Shown here: piece after piece, positions 9,887 to 29,180 of the stretch
Layout of the letters: each line of letters starts with the position of its first letter
Numbering within the stretch: the stretch's first letter is position 1
NCBI GenBank assembly: GCA_003282825.1
Contig: QBYM01000001.1
Coordinates: forward strand, 56,567 to 120,566
DNA from: Pelagibacteraceae bacterium AG-325-J17
GTDB taxonomy: Bacteria > Pseudomonadota > Alphaproteobacteria > Pelagibacterales > Pelagibacteraceae
Length of the DNA stretch: 64,000 bases
Direction: 5' to 3'
Notes under the pieces: model-generated
Database searches by the model: none
The model's input: only the letters and a program-made list of their open reading frames with translations
Told to the model about the DNA's origin: nothing
Program-made: the position numbers and the translations under genes

Positions 9887-9887
9887 C

Positions 9888-10736: not shown

Positions 10737-10783
10737 ATTTGTTTTATATAGATTTAACTTACAATTTAAAAGATCTATATAAC

Positions 10784-11704: not shown

Positions 11705-11767
11705 ATCGCACTTTTAAGCCTGAAGATCAAAAAACTGAAAACAACAAATATTACTGTAAAATACAGA

Positions 11768-12472: not shown

Positions 12473-13133
12473 AAGTAATTACCTGATTTTGAGGTCGAAC
12501 ATCAATAGATTTAATATTATCAAATTGCTTTTCATTTAATAAATTTAAAGATAATTCTAGAGACTTTTCTATATTTTCAATTGGTAATTTAATTAAGACT
12601 CCTGAAGATGTTTCTATATCCCATCTACCAGAAGGAAAAAAAAATAAATTTTCAATATCTTTGTAATCTAAATTTGAATTATCAATTATTCTTTTTAAAG
12701 ATAAGAATTTATCAATATTTGGGTCACCAAAAATATATGGCAAATCTTTTAATTTACCTTCTGCCTCAATTAGTTTTCCATTTGATCCAACATAAAAGCT
12801 TTTTCCTCTTTTGCTTAAATGTGCCAATAACTTAGTTTCAGTTATCTTAATTTCTAAAGAGGAAGGATATCTTTTTGAAATTACATATTTCTCAATCAAA
12901 TTATTTGAATTTAATAATTTTGTAACTTTTAGTTTATCTAGATGAAATAATGTACCCATTTTAAATAAATCTAAACTTTTTTGAAATTCTTTATTTTCAA
13001 TTGCTAACCCTTCAATTTTAATTTTTTCGATATTTGGAAATTTTAATTGAGCTAAATTCTTATTATTCAATGATCCAAAAATTATAAATAAAAAAAAATA
13101 TACTAAAATTTTTTTACTTATTTGTTGAGGCAT
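12465..13133 (-). CDS. ftsQ: Cell division protein FtsQ
   Basis: A 222-residue bitopic protein: a short N-terminus, a membrane segment at about residues 9-27 (ILVYFFLFIIFGSLNNK), then a POTRA-like domain (FPNIEKIKIEGLAIENKEFQKSL, read as strand-turn-helix) and the FtsQ beta domain (YVGSNGKLIEAEG, GRWDIETSSGVLIKLP, IKSIDVRPQNQVITY). FtsQ links early and late divisome proteins (FtsB/FtsL). It is shorter than enteric FtsQ. It overlaps ddl upstream by 20 bp and the FtsA-like gene downstream by 8 bp, which suggests tight translational coupling. Confidence 0.88.
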   Translation of the reverse strand: MPQQISKKILVYFFLFIIFGSLNNKNLAQLKFPNIEKIKIEGLAIENKEFQKSLDLFKMGTLFHLDKLKVTKLLNSNNLIEKYVISKRYPSSLEIKITETKLLAHLSKRGKSFYVGSNGKLIEAEGKLKDLPYIFGDPNIDKFLSLKRIIDNSNLDYKDIENLFFFPSGRWDIETSSGVLIKLPIENIEKSLELSLNLLNEKQFDNIKSIDVRPQNQVITYE

Positions 13134-14028
13134 CTTTTAAAATTAATCTTATGAGCTTAATAAAACTTATACCATGAAATGCAGCTATTTCAGGAACTAA
13201 AGATAGACTAGTCATTCCTGGCTGAGTATTTATTTCAAGAAGATAAAATCTACCTTTGTAAAATTTAAAATCAGAGCGAGTTACACCTCTACATCCCATT
13301 AATTTGTGAGCTTTAAGAGCTAAGTCCATAAGTTTATCAAAATCTTTTTTACTTAATTCTACTGGAATAATATGTTTTGTTTTTGCTTTTGAGTTATATT
13401 TGGCTTGGTAATCATAAAACTTTCTTTTTGGTTGTAATTCAATTGCTCCTAGTTTTTTGCTACCAATTATAGCTGCCTGAATTTCACGTCCTGGAATAAA
13501 TTGTTCTATCATTATTTTTTTATAATCTTTTAATAATTTAATTTTTTTTAAAACATCATTTTTTGAACAAATAAATACATTTACACTAGATCCCTCATTA
13601 ATTGGCTTAATTACTACAGGAAACTTTAATCTTTGATTAATCAATTTAATCAAGTCTTTATTAGATTTATCAAAACAATATGAAAAATATTTTGGGGTTA
13701 ATATTCTATTTTTAATAAATATTTTTTTGGATAACACCTTGTCCATAGCTAAAGATGATGAAATTATACCTGAGTGTGTGTATGGAATTTCTGTAGTTTC
13801 TAAAATAGTTTGAATATATCCATCTTCACCAAACTGACCATGCAATGCATTAAAAATAATATTTGGCTTAAATAATTTAATTACATCAAATAATCGATAA
13901 TCTGGTTCTGAAATTTTAACATTATAACCATTTTTAATTAGCTCTTTTGCAACCTGCTTACCAGTATCGAGACTGATTATTCTTTCTTTAGATATTCCAC
14001 CAGAGATTACTAATATTCTTTTTTTCAA
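13114..14028 (-). CDS. ddl: D-alanine--D-alanine ligase
   Basis: A 304-residue ATP-grasp ligase that makes the D-Ala-D-Ala dipeptide used by MurF. Visible elements are GISKERIISLDTG near the N-terminus, FNALHGQFGEDGYIQ (about residues 59-73), the PVVIKPINEGSSVNVF ATP-grasp strand and the metal-binding FYLLEINTQPGMTSLSLVP. The start codon is TTG (reverse complement of CAA at 14026-14028), one base after the murB stop; no upstream ATG fits. It lies between murB and ftsQ, as in other dcw clusters. Confidence 0.96.
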   Translation of the reverse strand: MKKRILVISGGISKERIISLDTGKQVAKELIKNGYNVKISEPDYRLFDVIKLFKPNIIFNALHGQFGEDGYIQTILETTEIPYTHSGIISSSLAMDKVLSKKIFIKNRILTPKYFSYCFDKSNKDLIKLINQRLKFPVVIKPINEGSSVNVFICSKNDVLKKIKLLKDYKKIMIEQFIPGREIQAAIIGSKKLGAIELQPKRKFYDYQAKYNSKAKTKHIIPVELSKKDFDKLMDLALKAHKLMGCRGVTRSDFKFYKGRFYLLEINTQPGMTSLSLVPEIAAFHGISFIKLIRLILKDASTNK

Positions 14029-14029
14029 G

Positions 14030-14938
14030 TTATTCCAAAATTTTAATTTCTTTTTCTAAACTAATTCCAGTCTTTTCTAAAACGTTTTTAGCAACAAAAT
14101 CTATTAATTTTTTCATGTCTTCAAATTTTGCATCTCCTTTATTTACAAAAAAATTACAATGTTTTTTAGAAATACATGCATCACCAAAACTTTTATCTAA
14201 AGGGACTGACTCTTTAATAAGTTCCCAAACTTTTTTTTGAGTTTGTGATGTTGGGTTTTTAAAAGTACTACCACTAGTTTTTATTTTTGTTGGTTGGTTT
14301 TTTTCTTTTTCTAATTTTAATTTATCAGTATTTTCTTTAATTTTTGCATAATCATCTTTGACACCTTTAAAAGAAGCACTTAAAAAAATTAAGTCATCAG
14401 ATAAATTGCTTTTTCTGTATTCAAACTTAATATCTTTGGATGGTATTGAAATTACTTTTCCAGATTTATCAATTGCTTGAATTGATAACAATATATCTTT
14501 AAACTCTTTTCCAAAACAACCAGCGTTCATCCTTATTCCTCCACCAATTGTTCCAGGAATACAAGATAAAAATTCAAAACCAGTCAGGTCATTTTTCATT
14601 GCAAAATCTGAAAGAGATTTATCTAAAACTGCACTTCCAGCTATTATTGTATTTTCACCTAATAGAGAAATATTATTAAAATTTTTACTTAATTTTATTA
14701 CTACTCCATCAAACAATTCATCTTTTATTAATGTATTCGAGCCTGCACCTAGTACAAAAATTTTTTCTTTTTTATTTAATTTTTTTAAAAGATTTACTAA
14801 CTCTTTTAAATTATCTGCTTTATAAAAAACCTTTGTTTTTCCCCCAATATTAAACCAATTTTTTTTTTTAAGGTCATGTTCGTATCTTACATTTGCACCA
14901 AATTCTTTTAATATATTTTTTAATTCAGAAATTTGCAT
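14030..14938 (-). CDS. murB: UDP-N-acetylenolpyruvoylglucosamine reductase MurB
   Basis: MurB reduces UDP-GlcNAc-enolpyruvate to UDP-MurNAc with NADPH and FAD. Visible are KKNWFNIGGKTKVFY (FAD-binding entry), VLGAGSNTLI, the SCIPGTIGGGIRMNAG motif, EYRKSNL and GSTFKNPTSQ, and the C-terminal CNFFVNKGDAKFEDM. I start it at the ATG at 14938, which shares one base with the murC stop (TAATG) and gives 302 residues. The frame is open to 14968 with another possible start, which would add 10 residues inside murC and looks less natural. Confidence 0.94.
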   Translation of the reverse strand: MQISELKNILKEFGANVRYEHDLKKKNWFNIGGKTKVFYKADNLKELVNLLKKLNKKEKIFVLGAGSNTLIKDELFDGVVIKLSKNFNNISLLGENTIIAGSAVLDKSLSDFAMKNDLTGFEFLSCIPGTIGGGIRMNAGCFGKEFKDILLSIQAIDKSGKVISIPSKDIKFEYRKSNLSDDLIFLSASFKGVKDDYAKIKENTDKLKLEKEKNQPTKIKTSGSTFKNPTSQTQKKVWELIKESVPLDKSFGDACISKKHCNFFVNKGDAKFEDMKKLIDFVAKNVLEKTGISLEKEIKILE

Positions 14939-16332
14939 TACATTAACTCTGGCAGTTTCCTCATCCAATTAGAAATAGATCCAGCACCCATTCCAATTAC
15001 AATTTTTTTACCATACATATTTTTTTTTAAAAATTTTGCTAGTTGAACATTATCTTTAACTAAAAAAAGTTTTACTTTTGAATTTTTAATAAGCTGTTTT
15101 GCAAAATTTAAATAATTAAATCCTAATCTTATTTTCTCTCCAGCAGCATAAATTGGACATAGAATAACTGTATTGGCATCCTTAAAAGCAAAAGAAAATT
15201 CATTCTTTAAATCTTTTAATCTTGAAATTCTATGTGGTTGGAATACACAAATTTTATCATATCCCTCATAGACTTTATTAACTCCTTCTAATACAACTTT
15301 AATCTCAGTTGGATGATGTGCATAATCATCAAAAAAATCTACTCCATTATAAGTAAAAATTTTATTAAATCTTCTTTGTACTCCCTTAAATTTTAGTAAT
15401 CCCTTTTTTATATCAGAAACTGATATTCCAACAGTAATAGCAACCGCTGCTGCTGCAACAGAATTTCTAATATTATGAATCCCCAATAAAGGAATTCTAA
15501 TTTTTTTAACTATAATTTTTTTTTTATTTGGAAGATTTACTTGCAAATCAAACTCTGAAAATTTCATACTTCGCTTAATATTTTTAATCAAAAAATTTGA
15601 TTTTGAATTCACACCATAGGTATAAAAATTTTTACCTTTCAATCTTTTTACAAGTTCATTATTAATTTTATCATCAATACAAATAAACGATTTTCCAAAT
15701 GAAGGTACCTTTTCAATAAATTCTATAAAATATTTTTTTAAGTCTTCCATAGATTTATAAAAATCCATATGTTCCCTATCTATATTTGTAATGATGGAAT
15801 AAGTTGGTGGAATATGAATGAAGCTTCCATCAGACTCATCTGCTTCTAGAATTGACCAATCACTTTTACCCAATTTTGCAGTATTCTTAATTGAATTTAT
15901 TACACCTCCATTAATAATAGTTGGATCTATCTTTGTTGTTTGAAAAATTGATGTAATTAATGAGGTTGTAGTTGTTTTCCCGTGTGAACCAACTACAACT
16001 ATATTTTTCATTAGGGATACAATATGTGCCAACATTTTGCCCCTTTTAATTATTGGTAAATTTTTTCTTTTTGCTTCAATAATTTCTGGATTATTTTTTT
16101 TTATAGCTGAAGATACTACAACTATTGTTGCATCTTTAAGATTTTGTTTTTTCTGCCCTATAAAAATTTTAATTTTTTCTTTTTTAAGTCTTTCAACATT
16201 TTTATTTAAACTCAAGTCACTTCCTTGAACTTTAAAACCCTTACCTTTCATAATCAAAGAAAGTCCACTCATCCCTATTCCACCGATTCCAACAAAATGT
16301 ATTATCTCAGTTTTTGCTATTTCAATTTTCAT
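14938..16332 (-). CDS. murC: UDP-N-acetylmuramate--L-alanine ligase MurC
   Basis: A 464-residue Mur ligase adding L-Ala to UDP-MurNAc. It has the N-terminal IHFVGIGGIGMSGLS nucleotide fold (about residues 11-25), VVGSHGKTTTTSLI (P-loop, about 113-126), EADESDGSF, TNIDREHMD, the HNIRNSVAAAAVA motif and DDYAHHPTEI. The C-terminus reaches GMGAGSISNWMRKLPEL. It overlaps murG by 11 bp upstream and murB by 1 bp downstream. This is the normal order murG-murC-murB-ddl. Confidence 0.97.
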   Translation of the reverse strand: MKIEIAKTEIIHFVGIGGIGMSGLSLIMKGKGFKVQGSDLSLNKNVERLKKEKIKIFIGQKKQNLKDATIVVVSSAIKKNNPEIIEAKRKNLPIIKRGKMLAHIVSLMKNIVVVGSHGKTTTTSLITSIFQTTKIDPTIINGGVINSIKNTAKLGKSDWSILEADESDGSFIHIPPTYSIITNIDREHMDFYKSMEDLKKYFIEFIEKVPSFGKSFICIDDKINNELVKRLKGKNFYTYGVNSKSNFLIKNIKRSMKFSEFDLQVNLPNKKKIIVKKIRIPLLGIHNIRNSVAAAAVAITVGISVSDIKKGLLKFKGVQRRFNKIFTYNGVDFFDDYAHHPTEIKVVLEGVNKVYEGYDKICVFQPHRISRLKDLKNEFSFAFKDANTVILCPIYAAGEKIRLGFNYLNFAKQLIKNSKVKLFLVKDNVQLAKFLKKNMYGKKIVIGMGAGSISNWMRKLPELM

Positions 16333-17386
16333 TTATAATTTTCAATATTTTTTGATTAACATTAATCCAAGTATTTTGATAATTTAATTTCTTTAAATTT
16401 TCCTTTTTTTTTAAGTAATCAATTTTATCAGTTAAAATCTCACTCAAAAGATGCTCAATTTTTTTCTCAAAATTAGTTTGTTCAATTAACCAGCAACAAT
16501 CATTTTCTTTATAAAAATTAGCATTTTCTAATTGATGATTGTCTTTTGAAGTTGGCAATGGGACAGCTATAAAAGGAATGTTGATAACTGATAGCTCTGC
16601 CAGAGTTGATGCGCCCGATCTAGTTATACAAAGATCTGCATCTTTAATAATATTTTCAAAATTATTTTCAAAATTAAAAATTTTATTTTCAATGTTATTT
16701 TTTGAATAAAAATCCTTTAAGTACGAAACATTTTCTTTATTAGTCTGCTGAATAATCTTAATTGGTTTTTTATTTGATATATTAACAATTGAATTCTTAA
16801 GATTCATATTAAAAATACTGGCACTTTGACTTCCACCTACTATCAATATTGTAAATTTATCTTTGATGCTACCTGATGATTTTAATTTATAAATATTCTC
16901 TCTTACTAAAGGATTTATTATAACCATCTTATTTAAAAAATTTTCGGGAAAATTTAAAATTTTTTTATTATAGCAAAAAATTTTTTTACAAGAACTTAAA
17001 AAATATTTATTTGCACGTCCTAATACTTGATTGGGTTCTAATAAAAAAATTTCTAATTTAAGTATCTTTCCTGCTAAAATAAGTGGTAAAGACATATATC
17101 CACCAGTAGATAAAATTTTCTCTATTTTTTTATTTTTTAATAGAAATAATGATTTTAAGGTTAAGATAATTATCTTAATTATATTGTAGGGTAAAAGAAA
17201 AATATTATCTAATCTTGGAGTGTTAATAATTTTGCATTTATAAAATTCGTCATTTAAATATCTTAATCCTCTTTTATCAGTTGATATAATTACATTTGCT
17301 TCTTTTGATAAATGTTCATTAAGAATTAAAGCTGGTATGACATGACCTCCAGAACCTCCAGTAGTAATTAAGAAATTTTTTTTCAT
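16322..17386 (-). CDS. murG: UDP-GlcNAc:lipid I N-acetylglucosaminyltransferase MurG
   Basis: A 354-residue GT-B glycosyltransferase that converts lipid I to lipid II at the inner membrane face. The N-terminal GGSGGHVIPAL G-loop (about residues 10-20), the STGGYMSLP segment, EPNQVLGRANK (usually 'EQNAxxGxxNR'), GGSQSASIFN and the CITRSGASTLAELSVINIPFIAVPLPTSKDNHQ-type donor site are visible. It follows ftsW with 1 bp between them and overlaps murC, consistent with one transcript. Confidence 0.95.
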   Translation of the reverse strand: MKKNFLITTGGSGGHVIPALILNEHLSKEANVIISTDKRGLRYLNDEFYKCKIINTPRLDNIFLLPYNIIKIIILTLKSLFLLKNKKIEKILSTGGYMSLPLILAGKILKLEIFLLEPNQVLGRANKYFLSSCKKIFCYNKKILNFPENFLNKMVIINPLVRENIYKLKSSGSIKDKFTILIVGGSQSASIFNMNLKNSIVNISNKKPIKIIQQTNKENVSYLKDFYSKNNIENKIFNFENNFENIIKDADLCITRSGASTLAELSVINIPFIAVPLPTSKDNHQLENANFYKENDCCWLIEQTNFEKKIEHLLSEILTDKIDYLKKKENLKKLNYQNTWINVNQKILKIINEN

Positions 17387-17387
17387 T

Positions 17388-18512
17388 TTAATTAATTTTT
17401 CTTTTTGTCAAATTTAAGATTATACCTGATAAAATTGAGATACTTATAATAGAAGAACCACCGTAACTAATAAAAGGTAGAGTCATACCAGTTGTTGGAA
17501 ATAGTCTTATATTAACTCCAATATGTATCATCGCTTGCATCAAAATAAGACTTATACAACCTACTAAAATTAATTTTATTTTTTCCTCATTTTCAAAATA
17601 AACTTTTTTAAATACTGAATAGATAAATATTAAAAACAATAGTAAAATTAGTATTATAGCAATAACACCAAACTCTTCAGAAATAACAGAAATAATATAA
17701 TCAGTGTGAGCCTCAGGAACCCTATTTTTTAATGTTCCTTCTCCAATTCCTTTTCCAAAAAAACCCCCACTTGTAATTGAGTCTATGGCTTTATCAGATT
17801 GAAAATTATGTGTTCCTGTCTCTGAGTTAAAGAAAGATACCAATCTATTTTTAATGTATTCAAACTTTGGAACAAAAAAAACTAAATATGAAAATACAAA
17901 TATTAAAAGTAAAAATAAAATTAATAAAAAAACAATACTTATACCTGAGGTAAAAATTAAAATTGACCAGCTAAAAAAAACTAAAAGAGTCTGTCCTATG
18001 TCAGGCTGAACAGCAAGCAATAGGGCTACTAACAACGTGATTAAAAAAGTAAAAAAGTATTTTAAGTAAATATTAGTATATTTTTCACTACTCAAAATTA
18101 AACTTATAAAAATTATCAAAAAAGGCTTTACAAGTTCAATTGGTTGAAATCTAGGTAAAAAATATAAATCAATCCACCTTTTAGATCCCTTAACTTCAAC
18201 ACCTATAACTGGGACTAAAATCAGTGAAATTAATGAGATGATAAAAATTATGCTAGAAAATTTTAAAAGTTTTTCTTGTTTAATTGAAGAAAGAAAAAAA
18301 ATTGTGATGATGCCTAATAAAATAAAAATTAAATGTTTAAAAAAAAATGAATAATCATTAGTGTCTAGTTTATCTGATACTACCAATGAGGTAGATGCTA
18401 ATGAAAAAAACAATCCAATAAAAAATAATAAAAGAATTAAAGAAAATATGAATTTATCAATATTTTTCCACCAATCATAATATAAATTGTATAAAAAATT
18501 ATTATTTTCCAT
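17388..18512 (-). CDS. ftsW: Lipid II glycan polymerase FtsW (SEDS family)
   Basis: A 374-residue polytopic membrane protein with about ten hydrophobic segments. SEDS hallmarks are visible: GSKRWIDL with the FQPIELVKP motif after it, QPDIGQTLL, FFGKGIGEGTLKNRVPEAHTDYIISVISEEFG, and the final SYGGSS. It polymerises septal glycan with FtsI (PBP3), encoded in the same run. It overlaps murD by 11 bp. FtsW rather than RodA is inferred from its place between murD and murG. Confidence 0.95.
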   Translation of the reverse strand: MENNNFLYNLYYDWWKNIDKFIFSLILLLFFIGLFFSLASTSLVVSDKLDTNDYSFFFKHLIFILLGIITIFFLSSIKQEKLLKFSSIIFIISLISLILVPVIGVEVKGSKRWIDLYFLPRFQPIELVKPFLIIFISLILSSEKYTNIYLKYFFTFLITLLVALLLAVQPDIGQTLLVFFSWSILIFTSGISIVFLLILFLLLIFVFSYLVFFVPKFEYIKNRLVSFFNSETGTHNFQSDKAIDSITSGGFFGKGIGEGTLKNRVPEAHTDYIISVISEEFGVIAIILILLLFLIFIYSVFKKVYFENEEKIKLILVGCISLILMQAMIHIGVNIRLFPTTGMTLPFISYGGSSIISISILSGIILNLTKRKIN

Positions 18513-19797
18513 TGAAATATTTTTTAACTAATTGATTAAAATAGAGCCCTCTGTCCTCAAAATTTTTAAAACTATCAAACGAAGCTGCACAAGGACTAAA
18601 TAGTATTGTACTGTGAGCTTGTTTTTCCTTCTTAACTAAATATGAAATATTTTTTAGAGCATCTTTTAATTCACTAAAGTTTTTTGATTTTAATTTATTT
18701 TTAAGCTGTTTATTAAAAAAGTTTTTGTTTTTTCCGTATATGAACGCTCTTACATTATTCAATTCTTTTTTTTTCAAATTAAATTTATCACCTTTTTTAT
18801 TAATTCCACCTAATAACCATAAGATATTAGAATTTGCTTTCAAAATACTAAGAGTAGAAGAAAAACTAGTTGATTTTGAGTCATTAATAATTTTCAAACC
18901 ATTTTTTTTTAAAATAGTTTGTTGACGATATTTCAAACCCTTAAAATTTTGAATAGTTTTTAAAAACAAATTATTTTTAAGCTTAAATTTTTTTACTATT
19001 TCAATCACAAATGATAGATTTTCTTTATTCGCATCAGTGGCAAAATAATTATTTTTAATTTTTTTAAAAAAATGATTACTGTGACTTGTATCAACTTTAA
19101 TAATTTTACTTTTAAATTTATTTAATCTTAAATTTTTATTAATTAGCTCATCATTTTTTTTTACAAAAGCAAAACTTTTTTTATCTTGAAATTTAAGAAG
19201 TTTAAATTTTGCATCTACATAACTTTTCAAATTTTTATGTCTTTCAAGGTGATCTGGGCTTATATTCAAAATAATCGCGTACTTTGAATTAAATATTTTG
19301 CTATAATCTAATTGATAAGAAGATGCCTCAATTACAAAAATTGTTTCTTTTTTTATTTTTCTTTCATTTAATATCGGATTACCAATGTTCCCAACAAGCC
19401 TCACATCTTTTTTTTGATCCAATAAAACGTCATGTAAAATTTTAGCTGTTGTTGATTTTCCATTTGTTCCTGTAACGGTGATACTCTTATTTTTATAAAA
19501 TGAGTAAAACACATCTAAATCAGTAAAAATTTTTGAATTATTTTTTTTTAAAAATTTTGATAATTTACAATTAGAAATATTAATACCTGGACTGATAATG
19601 ATTATATCTACTTCTATTTTTGTTATTTCACTTAGATTAATAAATTTTTGATTAAATGATTTGTTTATTTTTAAATTATCATCAAATAAATATATTTGAG
19701 CTAAGTCCTTTAAAAATTTAAAAGATGAAATTCCACTCTTACCAAGGCCATAAATTAATATTTTTTTTTCTAAAAAAATATTTCGAGCTATTTTCAT
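18502..19797 (-). CDS. murD: UDP-N-acetylmuramoylalanine--D-glutamate ligase MurD
   Basis: A 431-residue Mur ligase adding D-Glu. Visible are ILIYGLGKSGISSFKFL (N-terminal Rossmann), IIISPGI, TVTGTNGKSTTAKI (P-loop, about residues 106-119), IEASSYQLDYS, NISPDHLERH, the KYRQQ/NDSKSTSFSS region and a C-terminal LLFSPCAASFDSFKNFEDRG, the MurD signature. The mid-region is enriched in Lys and Asn. It shares its first base with the end of mraY and overlaps ftsW at its 3' end. Confidence 0.95.
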   Translation of the reverse strand: MKIARNIFLEKKILIYGLGKSGISSFKFLKDLAQIYLFDDNLKINKSFNQKFINLSEITKIEVDIIIISPGINISNCKLSKFLKKNNSKIFTDLDVFYSFYKNKSITVTGTNGKSTTAKILHDVLLDQKKDVRLVGNIGNPILNERKIKKETIFVIEASSYQLDYSKIFNSKYAIILNISPDHLERHKNLKSYVDAKFKLLKFQDKKSFAFVKKNDELINKNLRLNKFKSKIIKVDTSHSNHFFKKIKNNYFATDANKENLSFVIEIVKKFKLKNNLFLKTIQNFKGLKYRQQTILKKNGLKIINDSKSTSFSSTLSILKANSNILWLLGGINKKGDKFNLKKKELNNVRAFIYGKNKNFFNKQLKNKLKSKNFSELKDALKNISYLVKKEKQAHSTILFSPCAASFDSFKNFEDRGLYFNQLVKKYFNGK

Positions 19798-20882
19798 TAT
19801 CTTAATTTAAGTGTAGCTAAGCCTACCATTGCCAAAATTATCGAAATAATCCAAAATCTGATTACAACAGTTGACTCTGGCCAGCCTTTCTTTTCAAAAT
19901 GATGGTGTATTGGGGCCATTTTAAAAATTCTTTTTCCAGTAAGTTTGAATGAAATTACTTGAACCATCACTGAAACTGCCTCTAAAACAAATAGACCTCC
20001 AGTAATTGCTAAAACAATTTCATGTTTAGTAATTATCCCCACTGCACCTAAAGATCCTCCTAGAGATAATGAGCCAGTGTCACCCATAAAAATTTTGGCA
20101 GGTGGAGCATTGAACCACAAAAAACCTAAACAGGAACCTATTATCGCTCCACAAAAAATTGAAATTTCACCTGTTCCTTTAATATAAGGAATATTTAAAT
20201 AGTCTGAAAATACTATGTTACCAGTTACGTAACTAATAAAAGCAAAACAAGCTGCAACTAGTATTACTGGTACTGTGGCTAGACCATCCAAACCATCGGT
20301 AAGATTAACAGCGTTTGATGATCCAATAATTACAAATACTGAAAAAGGAACAAAGAACCATCCAAGGTTTATGATTAAATCTTTAAAAAATGGAAAATAT
20401 AAATTCGTTACATCTTGATAGTCAACAAATTGTAGATAAAAAATAACTCCTATAATTGCTAATATTATTTGTAAAACAATTTTTAATTTCGATGAGATAC
20501 CTGAAGAGTTAGTAAATTTAATCTTTTTGTAATCATCATAGGCACCTAATAATCCAAAAGAGATTGCAATATATATACAAAATAAAATGTTAATATTAGA
20601 TAAATCTGCCCAACATAAAACTGATACAAGTAATCCTAATAAGATGATTACCCCCCCCATTGTTGGAGTACCAATTTTTTTTATAATATGATCTTCTGGT
20701 CCATCATCACGGATTGGGTTATAAATTTTTTGATTAGAAGAAAATTTTATAAATGGACCTCCAATTATTAAAACTATTAACAAAGATGTAAAAACCGACA
20801 AACCAGTTCGAAATGTTAAATACTTAAAAACATTTAAAAATCCAAATGTATCTACAAAATTTAATAAAAATTGGTAAAGCAT
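19797..20882 (-). CDS. mraY: Phospho-N-acetylmuramoyl-pentapeptide transferase MraY
   Basis: A 361-residue, ten-segment membrane enzyme that links UDP-MurNAc-pentapeptide to undecaprenyl phosphate (lipid I). It carries GTPTMGGVIIL (about residues 71-81), the aspartate-rich LGAYDDYKK, SSNAVNLTDGLDGLATVP, the magnesium-site FMGDTGSLSLGGSLG and the C-terminal MAPIHHHFEKKGWPESTVV loop. All invariant motifs are present. It overlaps the MurE-MurF gene and murD by one base each. Confidence 0.97.
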   Translation of the reverse strand: MLYQFLLNFVDTFGFLNVFKYLTFRTGLSVFTSLLIVLIIGGPFIKFSSNQKIYNPIRDDGPEDHIIKKIGTPTMGGVIILLGLLVSVLCWADLSNINILFCIYIAISFGLLGAYDDYKKIKFTNSSGISSKLKIVLQIILAIIGVIFYLQFVDYQDVTNLYFPFFKDLIINLGWFFVPFSVFVIIGSSNAVNLTDGLDGLATVPVILVAACFAFISYVTGNIVFSDYLNIPYIKGTGEISIFCGAIIGSCLGFLWFNAPPAKIFMGDTGSLSLGGSLGAVGIITKHEIVLAITGGLFVLEAVSVMVQVISFKLTGKRIFKMAPIHHHFEKKGWPESTVVIRFWIISIILAMVGLATLKLR

Positions 20883-23722
20883 TAATTCAGACCCTTTAAA
20901 TCTTTCACTATTCTATTGAAACCTGTTGCATTTGAGGCTTTGATCATCAAATAATCATTATTATTTAATTCATCTCTTATCAAATTAATAATTTGTGATT
21001 TATTTTGCAAAATTCTACCTTTTTTAGATTTTGTAAGTTGATTAAATATAGATGACACCTTGGTTCCTTTAACAAAAACTTTATCTACCTTAGTTTGATT
21101 AATTATAGGTATAATAGATTGATGAAGTTTTTTTGAGTGATTTCCTAGTTCCAACATATCACCGAGCAAAAGGTATTTTTTTGATTTTTTTGTGTTAATT
21201 TTATCATAATTAAGTATTGCAGATTTTAATGATAATGGATTTGAATTGTAACTTTCATCTATTAAATTAATATTTTTGCCATCAACTTTAATTTTAGAAA
21301 AGTCTCCTCTTCCATTAGGTACTTCAAAATTTAAAAAAATATTTTTATTCAATTCAAAGATATTTATATTAATATTAATAACAGCTATTGCAGCTAAAAT
21401 ATTATATACATTATTTTGAAAATCATTTGAAATTAAAAAATATTTTTTTAAATTATTTATCTTAATGTAAATTTCAAAATTATCATTTTTTTTCACACAA
21501 TTTAATAATTTAACATCAGATGAAGGATTTTTAATTCCAAAAGAAATTATTTTAAGATTATTTTTAAAAGCTTTTTTTTTATGTAGTTTAAAAAATTTAT
21601 CATCTGCATTTAAAATAACAATACCACCAGATTTAGTATTATTAATAATTTCAGATTTGGCTAAAGCAATTTGTTTTATATTTTTAAAATTTTTTGCGTG
21701 TGCGTAGTTTACGTTAGTTATAACGCTAACATCTGGTTGTATGATTTTTGTGAGATAGTCAATTTCACCTTTTTTATCCATTCCAACTTCTAAAACACCA
21801 AAATTATCTTTACTAGTTAAATTAAAAAGACTTAAGGGGACTCCATATTTATTGTTATATGATTTAGGAGAGATGCTTACTTTTGAAATTTTTTTCAATG
21901 TGTTGCCCAATAATTCTTTCAATGTAGTTTTGCCACAACTCCCTGTTATAGCAATTATTTTAGCATCTATGTTTTTTCTAAAAATTTTAGAGATATCTGT
22001 CAAAAATTTTAGAGAATCTTTTACTTTAATTTGTTTAGATTTGTTTAAACTATTTTGAAATCGATTTACAATAGCTAAGGACGCCCTATTTTTAAATGAT
22101 TGTTTTACAAATTTATTTCCATCATTTTTTTCACCTTTTATTGCAAAAAAAATATCATCTTTTTTCACTTCGTTTGAATTAATTTTTGCTTGCTTAATAG
22201 ATAATGATGAAGAAACTCTTTTATTACCTGAAATCTCTTTAATTATATTTAACTTTAAATTATCAGATAAACTTAGGTTTTTAATTTTAATTGCTTTAAG
22301 AATAATTTTTTTATCTGAAAAATAAATTTTTCGCTTACCTATATCCTGAATTTTTTCATGCCCCTTACCAGCAACTAATAAAATTTCTCCAGTATTCAAA
22401 TTTTTTGTTGCTTCAAATATTGCTTTCGCTCTATTAGAAATCTCAATTATTTTTTTTCTCTTAATTCCTTTTTTAATATCTCTTCTAATTTTATCTGGGT
22501 TCTCAAATCTAGGATTATCATCAGTAAGATAAATTTTATCAGAGAAATCAGATGCAATTTTACCCATTTTTGATCTTTTATTTTGATCTCTATTTCCACC
22601 ACAACCAAATAATAAACAGAGCTTTTTATCTGGAAATTGTTCTCTAAGGTTTAAAAGGCAAGTTTTTAAGGCCTCTGGAGTATGTGCATAATCAAGAATT
22701 ATTTTTGATTTGTTTTTAATTTTACCAATCTTTTCAAATCTACCCTCTACTGGTTTAATTTTTTTAACAATATCTAAAATTTTTTTTAAATTAATAATTT
22801 TTTTAGCAGCAAATATTGCCATTAATATATTCTTTAATTGAATTTTCCCTATCAAGTTGAGACTTATCTCTTTTATGGAGTTGTTATATTTGATCTTTAG
22901 TAATTGAATTTCACCCTTAAAACTATGAGACAAAATTCTGAAATCATTTTTTTTATCATTCAATGTAATTATTTTTAATTTTTTTTGTTTTGCAATTTTA
23001 TTAATTTTTTTAAATTCAGGTATTTTATCATCTGTTATTATATTCCCCTTTTTTTTGATAAGATTTCTAAATAGGTAAAGTTTTGCATTAAGATAATCAT
23101 TTAAATTTTTGTGATAATCTAAATGGTCTTGAGATAAATTTGTAAATATTCCAGAATTAAACCTTAAACCATCAAGTCTATTCTGTTTTAAGCCATGACT
23201 TGAAGCCTCCATAATAACATTGTCTATTCTTTGATGTTTAAGTTTTTTTAATAACTCACCTAATTGAATTGGATCGATTGTAGTATTAGATAAATCTAAA
23301 TTTAAACTATTGGACTTAACCCCCAAAGTTCCAATTGAGGCAACTCTTTTATTATTTAATTTTAAAATTTGATAATAAAAATCTGCAATAGATGATTTCC
23401 CGTTTGTTCCTGTAACGGCAATTAAATTTTTTGGTATTCTATTGAAAATTTTAAATGAAACTTCAGATAATAATTTTCTAATATTTCTTGTATAAATAAA
23501 CAAAATCCCATTTTGAAATTCTTTAACTTTTTTTTCAGTAACAATAATTCTTGAGCCTTTTTTAATCGCAATAGAGATAAAATTGTTTCCATCAATTTTA
23601 TTACCTTTGATAGCAAAAAAAATATTATTTTTTTTTAATTTAGAACTATTAAAGGATATTCCTGAAAAAAAGATATTTCCAAATTTTTTATTAATATTAG
23701 GGATGTAATCTTTCAGTAACAT
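20882..23722 (-). CDS. murE-murF: MurE-MurF fusion (UDP-MurNAc-tripeptide synthetase / D-Ala-D-Ala adding enzyme)
   Basis: One uninterrupted 946-residue reading frame holds two complete Mur ligases. Residues about 1-482 are MurE: SSKLKKNNIFFAIKG, P-loop VTGTNGKS (103-110), EASSHGL, TNLSQDHLDYH and the meso-diaminopimelate specificity motif DNPR (402-405). Residues about 486-946 are MurF: VKKDDIFFAIKGEKNDG, P-loop ITGSCGKTT (592-600), GVPLSLFNL, the ESYNSNPLSLKSA-type ligand loop and LLGDMLELG. It would add meso-DAP and then D-Ala-D-Ala. In most bacteria these are adjacent separate genes; fusions are known in a few lineages. The join contains no stop or frameshift signal, so I read it as a real fusion. 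Confidence 0.94.
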   Translation of the reverse strand: MLLKDYIPNINKKFGNIFFSGISFNSSKLKKNNIFFAIKGNKIDGNNFISIAIKKGSRIIVTEKKVKEFQNGILFIYTRNIRKLLSEVSFKIFNRIPKNLIAVTGTNGKSSIADFYYQILKLNNKRVASIGTLGVKSNSLNLDLSNTTIDPIQLGELLKKLKHQRIDNVIMEASSHGLKQNRLDGLRFNSGIFTNLSQDHLDYHKNLNDYLNAKLYLFRNLIKKKGNIITDDKIPEFKKINKIAKQKKLKIITLNDKKNDFRILSHSFKGEIQLLKIKYNNSIKEISLNLIGKIQLKNILMAIFAAKKIINLKKILDIVKKIKPVEGRFEKIGKIKNKSKIILDYAHTPEALKTCLLNLREQFPDKKLCLLFGCGGNRDQNKRSKMGKIASDFSDKIYLTDDNPRFENPDKIRRDIKKGIKRKKIIEISNRAKAIFEATKNLNTGEILLVAGKGHEKIQDIGKRKIYFSDKKIILKAIKIKNLSLSDNLKLNIIKEISGNKRVSSSLSIKQAKINSNEVKKDDIFFAIKGEKNDGNKFVKQSFKNRASLAIVNRFQNSLNKSKQIKVKDSLKFLTDISKIFRKNIDAKIIAITGSCGKTTLKELLGNTLKKISKVSISPKSYNNKYGVPLSLFNLTSKDNFGVLEVGMDKKGEIDYLTKIIQPDVSVITNVNYAHAKNFKNIKQIALAKSEIINNTKSGGIVILNADDKFFKLHKKKAFKNNLKIISFGIKNPSSDVKLLNCVKKNDNFEIYIKINNLKKYFLISNDFQNNVYNILAAIAVINININIFELNKNIFLNFEVPNGRGDFSKIKVDGKNINLIDESYNSNPLSLKSAILNYDKINTKKSKKYLLLGDMLELGNHSKKLHQSIIPIINQTKVDKVFVKGTKVSSIFNQLTKSKKGRILQNKSQIINLIRDELNNNDYLMIKASNATGFNRIVKDLKGLN

Positions 23723-23724
23723 TT

Positions 23725-25413
23725 TTAATTAATTTCACTGTATTTTGTGGCTAAAATAGGCCCAATTTTTTCAACTATTTGACCTGTTGTTTCTACTGTG
23801 GTCCATCCAGCAGTATTATATGGAGTACCTTTGTATTTTATATTGGACCCATCTCTATAATGATAAACATAATCTTGATTAGTCTTTGGCTCATCTAGCA
23901 TGACTGCTAAAACAAATTTTGGACTAGATGTGGGAAATACCGAAATAAAAGAATTTATCTTTTTTTTAGAATAACCTCCCGTTATACTTTTTTGTGCTGT
24001 TCCTGTTTTTCCACCAATTTCATATCCATTAACGTTGGCTAAAGAAGCTGTCCCCTCTTTAGTGTTAACAATTTTTCTTAAAATAGGTAAAATTTTTTCT
24101 GACACTTCTTGGTCTAAAATTTTTTCTTTTTTTTCTTTTTGAGATTTTTTAATTATAGTAGGACTTATTTGATACCCTCCATTCACAATAATCGCATAGG
24201 CTTTTGCTAGCTGTAACAAAGTTGTGGTAATTCCATGCCCAAAAGAAGCAGTAGCCAGAGGACATTTGCCCCAATTGAATTTAATTGGTTTTCCAACTTC
24301 CTCAATATCAAAGTTTATCTTTTCCAAAATTCCAATTTTGGATAAGAATAATCTGAACTTTTCCTCACCAATTTGCTGACCAATTCTAACTGAACCTATA
24401 TTTCCTGATCTAATAAGAATTTGTTCTGCAGTCAAATCTGGTGGTATTTTATCGTCATACTCTCTAATAGGAAATCCTGCACAAGTTAATGATTTTGGTA
24501 AATCACTATATTCTGTTTCAGGTTCAATAATTTTTTCATCCAAAGCTGCTGCTAAAGTAAAGGTTTTGAAAACGGATCCAAATTCATAAACTCCTTTAGT
24601 TGCTCTATTTATTAAATTTATATCAGAAATAGTTTCTCTTTTATTTGGATCAAAATCTGGCAAAGACACTAAAGATAAAATTTCACCGTTATTAACATTC
24701 ATTAAAATCGCAGCACTACCTTTAGTTTGAAAAATCTGATTAAATTTTAAAAGCTCATCTCTAATTAAAAATTGTATGTCTTTATCAACTGTTAGTTTTA
24801 TTGGTTCTTGAAGATTTTTTAGTTCGTTATCTAATGACTTTTCAAGACCTGATATACCGTTGTTATCATTATCAATTTGACCAATAATATGACTAAATAA
24901 ATTTTTTTCAGGATATATTCTAGTCAACTTTTCTTCAGGCTGAATAGACTTATCGCCTAATTTCATTATTTTTTCATAATTTTCATCAGAAATAATTTTT
25001 TCAAGATAGAAAAATTTTTTATTTATCAAGTTAGATTCAATTTTTTTGTAATCTTTATTGGGAAAAATATACTTTAAATTAATTATTAATTTTTTTTTAT
25101 CAATAACTTTTTGTGTGCTTATGCCTATATCAACAGAACTTACAGTCTTACTTAAAAATTTTCCGTTTCTATCAAGAATATCTGCCCTGTAAAGATTATT
25201 CATTGGATTATTTATATTTTCATTTATCTCATTTTTTGATTTTCTGGATCCCAAATGAATTAGATGAATTGAGTAAATAAAGAAAATAATAAAAAAAATA
25301 AAAAAAATAAATGATACCCTATTAAAAGATAAATCTAAATTTGACTTACTTTTTTTATACGAAAAATCATCTTTATGATCCTCTAAAATGATTTTGGAAT
25401 TTCTATTATTCAT
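23725..25413 (-). CDS. ftsI: Septal peptidoglycan transpeptidase FtsI (PBP3)
   Basis: A 562-residue class B penicillin-binding protein. It has a cytoplasmic N-terminus, one membrane segment at about residues 34-52, a PBP dimer domain (YRADILDRNGKFLSKTV) and a transpeptidase domain. The catalytic motifs are S280-V-F-K (SxxK), S336-G-N (SxN) and K469-T-G (KTG). A further YxxxDxxxIxPxP-type stretch is not seen. It crosslinks septal peptidoglycan with FtsW. It overlaps the ftsL-like gene by 8 bp and is followed by the MurE-MurF fusion after 2 bp. Confidence 0.95.
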   Translation of the reverse strand: MNNRNSKIILEDHKDDFSYKKSKSNLDLSFNRVSFIFFIFFIIFFIYSIHLIHLGSRKSKNEINENINNPMNNLYRADILDRNGKFLSKTVSSVDIGISTQKVIDKKKLIINLKYIFPNKDYKKIESNLINKKFFYLEKIISDENYEKIMKLGDKSIQPEEKLTRIYPEKNLFSHIIGQIDNDNNGISGLEKSLDNELKNLQEPIKLTVDKDIQFLIRDELLKFNQIFQTKGSAAILMNVNNGEILSLVSLPDFDPNKRETISDINLINRATKGVYEFGSVFKTFTLAAALDEKIIEPETEYSDLPKSLTCAGFPIREYDDKIPPDLTAEQILIRSGNIGSVRIGQQIGEEKFRLFLSKIGILEKINFDIEEVGKPIKFNWGKCPLATASFGHGITTTLLQLAKAYAIIVNGGYQISPTIIKKSQKEKKEKILDQEVSEKILPILRKIVNTKEGTASLANVNGYEIGGKTGTAQKSITGGYSKKKINSFISVFPTSSPKFVLAVMLDEPKTNQDYVYHYRDGSNIKYKGTPYNTAGWTTVETTGQIVEKIGPILATKYSEIN

Positions 25414-25711
25414 TACCTAATATTAGATTATTTATTTGAAGCTGTTTTGTGCTTTGATCTATTATCTTAATTTCATTTATGTCTTTTTTAACTAATTCAT
25501 CATCAAAGTATAAATTTTGAAATTCAAGTAATTTTTCTGTTGAACTTAAAAATTCAAATTCTAACTTAATATTTTCAAAATCCTTTTTTAGTGCCCTAAT
25601 ATTCTCCTTTATTGTAAAAATCTCATCATCAGTTCTTTTTGTTGAATTTTTTACAAGTGCTGTAGATAAGATTAAAAATACTATTAAAAAAATGACTGAA
25701 AATTTCTTCAT
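25406..25711 (-). CDS. ftsL: FtsL-like small divisome membrane protein
   Basis: A 101-residue bitopic protein: an N-terminal hydrophobic segment (about residues 4-20) followed by a predicted coiled coil (about 30-70, heptad-like [20 protein letters not shown]). Sequence alone is weak, but length, topology and position between rsmH and ftsI are exactly those of FtsL, which pairs with FtsB and FtsQ. Its start overlaps the rsmH stop (4 bp, ATGA type). Confidence 0.8.
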
Positions 25712-26718
25712 AGCTTGTTTCCAAAATTTTCTATCTCTATTAAATGCTCAAATTTCTCTAAAATATCTGTTTTGAAATTATAAAAATCATCTTTTTTAAC
25801 AATATATCTAAGTTTCGCTGATCTTGATGGCAAATTTTCTTTCAGTTCTTTTTTAGAGGGAGTCCTGGGTTTTTTTTCCAACATTCGAAATAACGTGTCA
25901 GACTCCTCAATTTTAGGAACATATCTTGATATACTTTTTTTCTCTGACAAACTTTTAAAGAAATATTTAACTATTTTATCCTCCAGTGAATGAAAAGTAA
26001 CAACTGCTAAAATACCATCTTTTTTTAAAACTTTTGCTGCAGCTATTAATCCATAGATAAGTTCTGTAATCTCTTTATTAACAAAGATTCTTAATGCTTG
26101 AAAAACTTTTGTAGCACTATGGATCTTAAAATTTTTTTTCTTTTTAGTCTTTTCGATTATTTCTACTAAACTTTTTGTATCAATTTTATTTTTATTTCTT
26201 TGTTTAACAATACTGCTAGCTATTTTTTTTGCGTACTTTTCTTCCCCAAAAAATTTAAATATTTTCTCAAGATCTTTTGCATCTAGTCTATTAATTGCCT
26301 CTTTTGCTGAAAAATCATTTATCCCCATTTGCATATTTAGGTCTCCTAATGAATGAAATGATAACCCTTTTTTTGGATCTTTAATTTGTGTGGTTGAGTA
26401 ACCTAAATCAAAAACTATTCCCCTTACATTCGTATTTTTAATTTTTAAATCATCTAATTGACTAAATTTCTTATTTTTAAAAATAAATCTATCTTGAAAC
26501 TCTTTTGAAATTTTATCTGCTTTTTTTTTACTTTCTAGATCTCTGTCTAAAGCAATGACTTGAGTATTTTGATAACTTAAAATTTTTTTTGTATAACCAC
26601 CTTGACCAAACGTGCAGTCAATAAATGTGCCACCATACTGAGGGGTAATAATGCTAATTAATTCATTTAGCAAAACCGGATAGTGTTTTACAACATCCGA
26701 TTGCATGGTGGCTTGCAT
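25708..26718 (-). CDS. rsmH: 16S rRNA (cytosine1402-N4)-methyltransferase RsmH (MraW)
   Basis: A 336-residue SAM-dependent methyltransferase that modifies C1402 in the ribosomal P site. Visible are [26 protein letters not shown] (SAM motif I), [20 protein letters not shown] with the family-typical 'S-x-Q' region, [13 protein letters not shown], and the C-terminal [22 protein letters not shown]. Two ATGs (26718 and 26706) are possible starts; I keep the longer. It is the second member of the usual mraZ-rsmH pair but is separated from mraZ by ftsZ here. Confidence 0.95.
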
Positions 26719-26736: not shown

Positions 26737-28194
26737 TTAATTTTTTTGTCTTCTTAAAAATGCTGGAATTTCAAGATCATCATCTTCTTGATCTTCTTCG
26801 GATGACCCCAGTAAATCATCTGAATTTTTTGTTTCAATATCTGAATTAAATAAATCTGGCTCATCTATATCAACACCAAATTCTTTTAAATCTCCTGAAA
26901 CTTCTTCTTTGTCTGATGAGTTTATTGCTTCTTCTGAAAAGGAAACTTCATTCTCCTCAGATGTGTTCTCAACAATATTTTCTACTTCTTGATTTTTGAG
27001 TAACTCTTCATGATACTGATTGTTAACCTCATCTATAGTTTCATTTTGATTTTCTGTGACAACTTCATTTTCAAGTTTTAAAGCATTTGCTCCATGAGTA
27101 ACTGGATTTGAATTGCTATTAGAAAATGAAAAAGATGCTGTGTGATTGTTTGAACCAAAATCAGAATATCCAGTATTACGATTTTGTATTCTATGCACCA
27201 TATTAACAACTGACTTAGATTCAGGTTGTTGATTGTCTAATGATGTAGCAACTATTGAAACTCTTATTTTACCTGCAAGAGCTTCATCAGTTATTGCACC
27301 TATAATAACTTCAGCATCAGCTTCAACTTCTGATCTAATTTTATTAACTACTTCATCAACTTCAAAAAGTTTAAGATCTTTTCCGCCAGTAATATTAACT
27401 AATAAACCTTTTGCTCCTTTAAGTGTATAATCGTCTATTAAAGGATTGCTAATTGCCATTTCAGTAGCCTGCATAGCTCTACCTTCTCCATCAGCTTCTC
27501 CTGTTCCCATCATGGCTTTACCCATTGATGCCATAACAGTTTCTACATCAGCAAAATCTAAATTAATTATTCCAGGTCTAACCATTAAGTCAGTTACACT
27601 TTGAACTCCATGCATCAAAACATTATTTGAAAGATTAAAAGACTCCTCAAATGTGGTTTGTTCATTTGCTATTTTAAATAAATTTTGATTTGGTATCACA
27701 ATTATTGTATCTACATGCTTTCTTAATTCCTCAAGACCAATTTGAGCTCTTCTCATTCTTGAAGGCCCTTCGTATAAGAAAGGAAGTGTAACTACACCTA
27801 CAGTAAGTATATTTAATTCTTTTGCTGCTCTAGCAATAACATGCGCTGCACCAGTTCCAGTTCCACCACCCATTCCTGCAGCGATGAAAACCATATTGGC
27901 ACCTTGCAAAATATTTACAATTTCATTTAAAGACTCATCAGCTGCAGCCTGTCCAATATCAAGCTTAGCACCTGCACCCAATCCTTTAGTTAAATTTAAA
28001 CCAATTTGAATTTTTGATTTTGCTTTACTATGCTTTAAATCTTGTGCGTCTGTATTTACAGCTATAAATTCAACTCCCTGCATTCCATTCTCAATCATCT
28101 CATTAATTGCATTTCCTCCTGCACCTCCAACTCCCATTACTAGAAGTCGTGGTTGCAACTCTTTAATCTCTGGTGCTCTTAAGTTAATTGTCAT
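26737..28194 (-). CDS. ftsZ: Cell division GTPase FtsZ, relocated to between mraZ and rsmH
   Basis: A 485-residue tubulin-like GTPase that forms the Z ring. The core contains VGGAGGNAIN (about residues 22-31), the tubulin signature GGGTGTG (109-115), a PFLYEGPSRMRRA segment and NxDFADV. A long acidic, Asn/Ser/Glu-rich linker (about 340-470) ends in the conserved C-terminal peptide LEIPAFLRRQ, which binds FtsA, ZipA or other anchors. The gene follows mraZ by 1 bp. In almost all dcw clusters ftsZ comes after ftsA; here that place is empty. Confidence 0.97.
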   Translation of the reverse strand: MTINLRAPEIKELQPRLLVMGVGGAGGNAINEMIENGMQGVEFIAVNTDAQDLKHSKAKSKIQIGLNLTKGLGAGAKLDIGQAAADESLNEIVNILQGANMVFIAAGMGGGTGTGAAHVIARAAKELNILTVGVVTLPFLYEGPSRMRRAQIGLEELRKHVDTIIVIPNQNLFKIANEQTTFEESFNLSNNVLMHGVQSVTDLMVRPGIINLDFADVETVMASMGKAMMGTGEADGEGRAMQATEMAISNPLIDDYTLKGAKGLLVNITGGKDLKLFEVDEVVNKIRSEVEADAEVIIGAITDEALAGKIRVSIVATSLDNQQPESKSVVNMVHRIQNRNTGYSDFGSNNHTASFSFSNSNSNPVTHGANALKLENEVVTENQNETIDEVNNQYHEELLKNQEVENIVENTSEENEVSFSEEAINSSDKEEVSGDLKEFGVDIDEPDLFNSDIETKNSDDLLGSSEEDQEDDDLEIPAFLRRQKN

Positions 28195-28195
28195 T

Positions 28196-28663
28196 TTATT
28201 CCCCCTCTTTATTGTTTAAATGTTTTTCCCATTTAAGGCTTGCTCGATTTATATTTGCTTTTTTTCTTGCACTAGCCCTAAATTTTTCAAAAGTTGTTGG
28301 TTCCCATATTTGAAAAGTTTTACCTTGACCAACAAACAACATGCTATTTTTTATTTTTGCATGTTTTAATAATTTTGTAGTGAGTGAAATTCTTCCTTCG
28401 CTATCAAATTGTAAATTTATACTTTCAGATAGTATTGATGTAGCAAAAAAATCTCTTTTTTCTTCAAAGGGATTTAGCTTATCTATTGTATTTGAAATTT
28501 TTTCTATTCTGTCTTGAGGCCACACTTCTATAGATTGATTATTAAATGATGGATAACAAATTACTCCATTGTATCCTAAATTAGATAAATAAGATCTATA
28601 GCTTGCAGGCACTGACACCCTTCCTTTTTTGTCTAATTTGTTTTCGTAGGTTGATAAAAACAT
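28196..28663 (-). CDS. mraZ: Transcriptional regulator MraZ
   Basis: A 155-residue protein with two SpoVT-AbrB/MraZ repeats: STYENKLDKKGRVSVPASYR (about residues 4-23, the DxKGRxxxP motif) and the second copy ESINLQFDSEGRISLTTKLLKHA (about 84-106). MraZ is a ring-shaped DNA-binding protein; in E. coli it represses its own dcw promoter through TGGG repeats. Matching repeats lie directly upstream here. An AAAGGA sequence 11 bases before the ATG could serve as ribosome binding site. It heads an 18-gene minus-strand run. Confidence 0.95.
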   Translation of the reverse strand: MFLSTYENKLDKKGRVSVPASYRSYLSNLGYNGVICYPSFNNQSIEVWPQDRIEKISNTIDKLNPFEEKRDFFATSILSESINLQFDSEGRISLTTKLLKHAKIKNSMLFVGQGKTFQIWEPTTFEKFRASARKKANINRASLKWEKHLNNKEGE

Positions 28664-28693: not shown

Positions 28694-28718
28694 TGGGAAT
28701 ATTTGGGATATTATGGGT
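28694..28718 (-). promoter_or_regulatory. Three MraZ-box-like TGGG repeats at 10-bp spacing
   Basis: On the plus strand TGGGA occurs at 28694-28698, TGGGA at 28704-28708 and TGGGT at 28714-28718, so the starts are exactly 10 bp apart with 5-bp spacers. This is the arrangement described for E. coli MraZ operators. The repeats flank and touch the candidate -10 element of the mraZ promoter, which would suit repression by MraZ. The first box is also one arm of a perfect inverted repeat ATTCCC-N8-GGGAAT (28681-28700). Confidence 0.66.
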
Positions 28719-28736
28719 TTTTAATCACAGAGTCAA
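28708..28736 (-). promoter_or_regulatory. Candidate sigma-70 promoter of mraZ / dcw cluster
   Basis: Read on the minus strand, TTGACT (complement of 28731-28736) is followed after exactly 17 bp by TAATAT (complement of 28708-28713). Transcription would begin near 28701, giving a leader of about 37 bases before the mraZ ATG. Both hexamers are near consensus and spacing is ideal, which is better than the many chance TATAAT strings in this AT-rich DNA. Confidence 0.6.
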
Positions 28737-28825
28737 TACTTACAATTTAGGGTTTTATTTATAAATATTGATCGAAAAAAGTGAATCAAAACGTGAACAT
28801 TGGAACTTTTATTTAAAGAAGATTT

Positions 28826-29180
28826 GCCAGATAAACTATAAGCCGGGTTCTGTCATTTAAACTTATCATTTGTCTAGGCTTAAGATCACTCTTAAGCTCA
28901 AGCAACTAACCCTGATGACTAGCCAAGGACGGCTTTTAGTTTTTCAACAGTGTCATCTCTACTTAGTCTTGCTCCCAGTGGGGTTTTCCAGCGTTCATTG
29001 TTACCAATAGAACCGGTGTGCTCTTACCACACCTTTTCACCCTTGCCATGTTATGGCGGTTTATTTTCTGTGGCACTATCCCTAGGGTTTCCCCTGCCAG
29101 GTATTACCTGGCACTGTGTCCTTGTAGAGCCCGGACTTTCCTCTTTAAACTAATTTAAAGCGACAAGTCATTTATCTGGC
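28826..29180 (-). ncRNA. rnpB: RNase P RNA (type A)
   Basis: The catalytic RNA that matures tRNA 5' ends. On the minus strand the 5' part has GAGGAAAGTCCGGGCTC (complement around 29128-29144). The centre has GGGGAAACCCTAGGGATAG and GGTAAGAGCACACCGG, and the 3' part ends in GACAGAACCCGGCTTA. These are the universally conserved RNase P blocks. The ends GCCAGATAAA and TTTATCTGGC pair perfectly as helix P1, which fixes both borders, about 355 nt. The plus strand over the region contains a chance open frame that should not be annotated. Confidence 0.95.

Follow-up and report, generated by a model that had tools for sequence, protein, structure and literature searches.

A predicted MraZ operator overlaps the mraZ promoter of Pelagibacteraceae and is oriented against the gene in most sampled Alphaproteobacteria

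The mraZ locus and its gene run

The window analysed here, a 64,000-nucleotide stretch of the genome assembly of Pelagibacteraceae bacterium AG-325-J17, carries on its minus strand a dcw cluster that begins with mraZ and is preceded by the RNase P RNA gene:

28823..29179, minus strand: RNase P RNA gene (rnpB), directly upstream of mraZ (Rfam RF00010, 292 bits)
28196..28663, minus strand: mraZ, 155 amino acids, two MraZ domains (PF02381, 83.5 bits)
26737..28194, minus strand: ftsZ, directly behind mraZ, the sole ftsZ found in the genome assembly
7859..26718, minus strand: remaining co-directional run from rsmH to ligA (open reading frames, Pfam, order in relatives)

From mraZ onward, 18 genes lie in the same direction: mraZ, ftsZ, rsmH, ftsL, ftsI, a murE-murF fusion, mraY, murD, ftsW, murG, murC, murB, ddl, ftsQ, an open reading frame (ORF) at the ftsA position, lpxC, bamD and ligA. 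For genes of this run outside the Pfam search, the names are based on translations. The dcw gene order of the window is kept in relatives. The run is co-directional as the original prediction had it, while the reach of one transcript to all 18 genes is predicted only. When we scanned the run for internal promoter and terminator patterns, the counts equalled those expected from shuffled sequence.

The murE and murF genes form a single 946-amino-acid ORF (20882-23722, minus strand) with two sets of Mur ligase domains in Pfam. They are apparently also fused in the family members L354 and L357, whereas in L353, from a second SAR11 family, and in L352 the two halves align to different stretches, as two distinct genes would. 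The ORF at the ftsA position (11768-12472, minus strand) encodes only 234 amino acids, and its similarity to FtsA is sub-threshold. The sole match to the FtsA model in this genome lies elsewhere, in a 353-amino-acid frame that is possibly MreB-like (G000:C2:91464), and several SAR11 relatives have a second FtsA-model match, in a frame of ~390 amino acids. Judging from these frames, some SAR11 members may have a degenerate FtsA.

The product of mraZ has its named relatives in the Pelagibacteraceae (SAR11), with protein identity up to 97%, and its kin in the PDB include 9qlr, 9sx6, 9qlg and 1n0e, with multi-chain entries among the matches. It is an intact, cognate MraZ that carries the DNA-binding residues: across six aligned MraZ proteins, including those of E. 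coli and Bacillus, neither R15 nor R91 of the paired DxxxR motifs varies.

Directly behind mraZ, ftsZ was found in all 118 SAR11 loci tested (98/98 in the same family and 20/20 in the second), whereas 91/95 of the other Alphaproteobacteria, and 48/48 other loci, have rsmH in this place. The usual ftsZ slot, between ftsA and lpxC (11704-11768), holds no ftsZ here. The loci L043 and L215, both from another alphaproteobacterial family, also have ftsZ behind mraZ, a shift that may, on gene order, bear on the kinship of that family to SAR11. The same family, whose cluster was read in L352, has rnpB upstream of mraZ as well.

The rnpB gene lies 160 bp upstream of mraZ on the same strand, and adjoins it in 98/99 loci of the family and 20/21 of the second SAR11 family. 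We considered this neighbourhood as a SAR11 speciality and rejected the idea, as at least 43/95 of the loci from other Alphaproteobacteria share it. Between the two genes, the coding strand carries GTTCACGTTTTGATTCAC (~28781-28800, minus strand), a stretch also present in several relatives, L015, L026 and L028 among them.

The repeat array and the mraZ promoter

The interval between rnpB and mraZ contains the following elements, listed in the direction of transcription:

28731..28736, minus strand: -35 hexamer TTGACT of the mraZ promoter (sequence, and conservation in three-box SAR11 relatives)
28714..28717, plus strand: predicted MraZ box 1, TGGG on this strand and CCCA on the mraZ coding strand, just 5' of the -10
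28708..28713, minus strand: -10 hexamer TAATAT, which exactly fills the 6-bp spacer of boxes 1 and 2
28704..28707, plus strand: predicted MraZ box 2, adjoining the -10 on its downstream side
28701, minus strand: predicted transcription start, 7 nt past the -10 and between boxes 2 and 3 (inferred from the hexamer positions)
28694..28697, plus strand: predicted MraZ box 3, near the 5' end of the predicted transcript

The three TGGG(A/A/T) repeats that had been described are confirmed in the sequence, with TGGGA at 28694, TGGGA at 28704 and TGGGT at 28714 on the plus strand, in exact 10-bp steps. On the minus strand, which codes for mraZ, the same region reads TTGACT, 17 bp, and then CCCA-TAATAT-CCCA-AATATT-CCCA, in which the first CCCA forms the end of the 17-bp spacer. 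The pattern TGGG-N6-TGGG-N6-TGGG matched once in the 64-kb window, against no match in 100 shuffles, and nowhere else in the genome (977,881 bp, ~77% complete), for which base composition predicts ~0.0018 such arrays. A start at 28701 would give mraZ a leader of 38 nt, the same length as in E. coli (PMC5089854).

Taken alone, the promoter matches the consensus at 9 of 12 positions, and matches this good occur at chance level in such an AT-rich genome; it is credible because it is conserved at a fixed spacing and not from its own consensus match. For comparison we took the sequence upstream of mraZ in 98 family members, 97 from the genus of this bacterium and one from another genus. Three CCCA boxes at exact 10-bp steps were present in 97 of them and two boxes in the remaining one, so that the 10-bp periodicity, for which the original prediction had proposed this very comparison, is kept in other SAR11 genomes. 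With the 97 three-box relatives anchored on box 1, TTGA was found in all, the fifth -35 base was C in 96, and the -10 had its first T, its A and its final T in all 97, at the same distance from the boxes. The core positions of the predicted TTGACT-N17-TAATAT promoter overlapped by the array are thus conserved in 97/97 of these relatives. Indeed, boxes, TTGA and TA----T are invariant amid weakly conserved flanks: at most positions from the -35 to the A-run before box 1, the commonest base reaches only 34-67%. Among named Pelagibacteraceae loci, 79 of 80 had three boxes, and the 80th was truncated at the edge of its contig.

In the second SAR11 family, with 20 usable loci, we counted five boxes in 14, four in three, three in two and two in one, and most sequences had TAGACA, 17 bp, and TACTAT or TAATAT in an inter-box slot. 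Both families thus share the layout despite differing sequences, which means that the geometry survives.

This fixed arrangement bears on the possibility that most dcw transcription is read-through from the RNase P RNA gene, with the array acting mainly as a roadblock or being idle. The proximity of rnpB on the same strand would permit it, no terminator-like site was found when we searched between rnpB and mraZ here, and in R. sphaeroides, which has the long UpsM leader, mraZ lacks its own promoter (PMC5089854). However, 97 SAR11 relatives share an invariant TTGAC-N17-TANNNT promoter at a set distance from the boxes, which one would hardly expect of an unused promoter, and we regard read-through as the main source of transcripts as quite improbable.

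Across whole assemblies, the triple pattern occurred in 94 of 121 SAR11 genomes, as one array each on a single strand (five-box arrays count as up to three overlapping matches of the pattern), and the reversed-pattern control in none of the 121. Among the matches listed, the array lay at mraZ at least in all those that could be matched to mraZ coordinates, and in nearly all array-less SAR11 genomes mraZ was absent from the assembly or at a contig edge. Natural loss of mraZ was considered as a further test of the array and rejected: 12 of the 13 assemblies picked for having no full mraZ match also lacked ftsZ, so the whole region is missing there and these assemblies are uninformative on the array.

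TAATAT-like promoters are common in AT-rich genomes, which might suggest a chance or merely inherited, functionless repeat. With ~0.002 arrays expected per genome, boxes invariant among diverged flanks and a reversed control of 0/121, this explanation is refuted by conservation and is hardly conceivable. The array also follows its putative regulator: the composite CCCATGNTATCCCA was present in 93 of 164 alphaproteobacterial genomes with mraZ and in 1 of 28 without (192 genomes; Fisher p = 4e-8, a value that overstates independence because the genomes are related).

Orientation of the boxes across bacteria

The promoter of mraZ in E. coli, mraZ1p, was reportedly described together with its MraZ boxes by Eraso et al. 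in 2014. Read from the sequence, the E. coli order is TTGACA, TAAACT and then TGGGaaattgTGGGgcaaagTGGG, with the boxes beginning 8 nt after the -10 hexamer. In both organisms TGGG units at 10-bp steps adjoin the mraZ promoter, the boxes lie on one DNA face and the MraZ proteins share the DxxxR residues. However, the E. coli boxes read TGGG on the mraZ coding strand and lie downstream of the -10, whereas in SAR11 that strand reads CCCA, the boxes being on the opposite strand, and the array straddles the -10, with boxes 1 and 2 on either side of it; behind mraZ, E. coli has rsmH and SAR11 has ftsZ. The description of the site as an E. coli-type MraZ box hence fits as regards the TGGG unit and its 10-bp period, but not as regards the orientation or the position relative to the -10.

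The mycoplasma site, given as (AAAGTGKN3)3 by Fisunov et al. 2016 as quoted in a passage of PMC5282649, likewise comprises three direct repeats with a 10-bp period in a short division operon that includes ftsZ. It differs in having its GTG core on the coding strand, and mraW and MG_223 stand between mraZ and ftsZ in mycoplasma (PMC8475190), whereas in SAR11 ftsZ adjoins mraZ. PmraBc of B. cenocepacia, which MraZ bound in a gel shift, has four 7-nt repeats with 3-nt spacers, which share the 10-bp period and overlap the start site (PMC7761207), but these GTG repeats lie on the coding strand, downstream of the -10. That our array belongs to another regulator, or is a structural feature of the promoter, we consider very improbable: its unit and its 10-bp step are those of tested MraZ sites, and it tracks mraZ across Alphaproteobacteria and is nearly absent where mraZ is absent.

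For a wider comparison, we counted boxes at exact 10-bp steps within at most 250 bp upstream of mraZ. Among 95 non-SAR11 alphaproteobacterial loci, 85 had at least two CCCA and 63 at least three. Three CCCA as a strict rule for all Alphaproteobacteria proved too strict and was dropped: several loci have CCAT or ACCAT at the 10-bp step, so we counted CCA too. At least three CCA were present in 80/95 of these loci and at least three TGG in 0/95, while in 49 loci from the phylum's other classes, E. coli among them, the corresponding counts were 0 for CCA and 38 for TGG. The reversed-word controls ACC and GGT gave three copies in no group except one of the 49 other-class loci. Named records of S. 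meliloti, R. leguminosarum, Shinella and Tistrella carry three to four CCCA, and thus share the orientation, box number and 10-bp steps of SAR11, whereas E. coli, Aeromonas, Burkholderia, Bacillus, Paenibacillus, Tsukamurella, Phocaeicola and Monoglobus carry three to four GTG units on the coding strand. In our samples of Gamma- and Betaproteobacteria, Bacillota, Actinomycetota and Bacteroidota, the array is on the coding strand. One Sphingomonas locus, a plasmid copy, had neither a CCCA nor a GTG array.

The alphaproteobacterial array is therefore directed opposite to mraZ and spans the -10 (80/95 of the loci outside SAR11, that of S. meliloti among them). A -10-like hexamer occupied an inter-box slot in 98/98 and 19/20 loci of the two SAR11 families and in 67 of 85 non-SAR11 alphaproteobacterial loci, but in 0/24 loci of the TGGG type. 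In those 85 loci, TTGAC was exactly in phase with the slots in 38 and one base off in 23. The other Alphaproteobacteria differ from SAR11 in their longer leader, in having rsmH behind mraZ, and in that TTGAC mostly lies 14-15 bp from the slot hexamer (17 here), a distance for which we rejected their promoters as ordinary sigma-70 promoters with 17-bp spacing. They may instead use a -10 read 3 nt later and overlapping the box, which the looser Caulobacter promoter consensus would permit. In L265 and L269, two loci from a single family that is possibly Rhodobacteraceae-like, no array lies near mraZ; two CCA boxes were found at about -283 and -294, roughly the place expected for the UpsM promoter of R. 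sphaeroides (268 nt upstream).

As the other sampled phyla share the coding-strand layout, inversion of the operator on the line to Alphaproteobacteria would be the simplest history, judged from the layouts in a small sample of other phyla. We found no account of the alphaproteobacterial orientation in the open-access papers searched, and the reversed layout is, provisionally, apparently new. The original prediction had called the operator notable for a streamlined genome; most Alphaproteobacteria share the same operator, and it is not peculiar to streamlined genomes.

Predicted feedback on mraZ and ftsZ

The array consists of at least three short direct repeats of the TGGG/GTG kind with a 10-bp period, sits at the mraZ/dcw promoter, at the same place in relatives, and is both conserved and co-occurring with mraZ. 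On these sequence grounds its identity as a MraZ operator is well supported, and autorepression by covering of the -10 is likely; conservation, uniqueness in the genome and co-occurrence with mraZ favour both, and the overlap with the promoter, as put forward in the original prediction. Taken together, we assign a probability of roughly 0.8 to the reading that the array is the MraZ operator of the Pelagibacteraceae dcw operon, where MraZ is predicted to cover the -10 and repress mraZ and ftsZ. We infer the binding of MraZ, repression as its sign, the start site and the reach along the run.

In this mechanism MraZ, the product of the first gene, would bind the three 4-bp boxes, which lie one helical turn apart on the same DNA face. 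Such a spacing is compatible with a MraZ ring built from several equal subunits, and mycoplasma MraZ is reported to be an octamer, as cited in a passage of PMC7761207. With boxes 1 and 2 flanking the -10 and box 3 just past the start, bound MraZ would cover the -10 and block RNA polymerase, resulting in negative feedback on mraZ itself and most directly on the next gene, ftsZ. Because ftsZ comes next after mraZ in SAR11, FtsZ should be the first and most promoter-near target of the predicted loop.

Repression of the dcw cluster by MraZ has experimental support in E. coli, as cited in a passage of PMC7761207, and in M. genitalium (PMC8475190). MraZ might alternatively bind the array and activate the mraZ promoter, or switch sign with its level. 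Indeed, loss of mraZ in Neisseria elongata lowered the expression of dcw genes, namely the first ones (PMC9395523), and mycoplasma MraZ has been described as an activator (cited in a passage of PMC7761207). Given these opposite results, the sign of MraZ control is not universal, and repression is the predicted sign here. However, boxes that flank the -10 and extend into the early transcript are placed as for a steric block, and the array has flipped its orientation between lineages, which would be hard to tolerate for a protein that touches polymerase in one way only. Activation is therefore unlikely, and the reversal across the class favours simple occlusion over polymerase contact.

A broader scenario could equally well prove right or wrong. 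In the ancestor of Alphaproteobacteria, the operator would have inverted and slid upstream, with the promoter hexamers coming to lie in its 6-bp gaps and MraZ serving as an orientation-indifferent cover of the -10; in the Pelagibacterales, ftsZ would then have moved from behind ftsA to behind mraZ, so that mraZ and ftsZ together would form a small feedback module controlling the amount of FtsZ.

Few bacterial regulators are as conserved as MraZ, and its published sites (E. coli, Burkholderia, mycoplasmas) follow one layout. A reversal across a whole class, in which the -10 lies between boxes, means that the recognition unit and the helical spacing were kept, but the orientation to the gene was not. 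In SAR11, which has few regulators, ftsZ beside mraZ places the central division protein under direct predicted feedback. If this is true, the mraZ-ftsZ unit would set the level of FtsZ in a bacterial group that is among the most abundant in the ocean.
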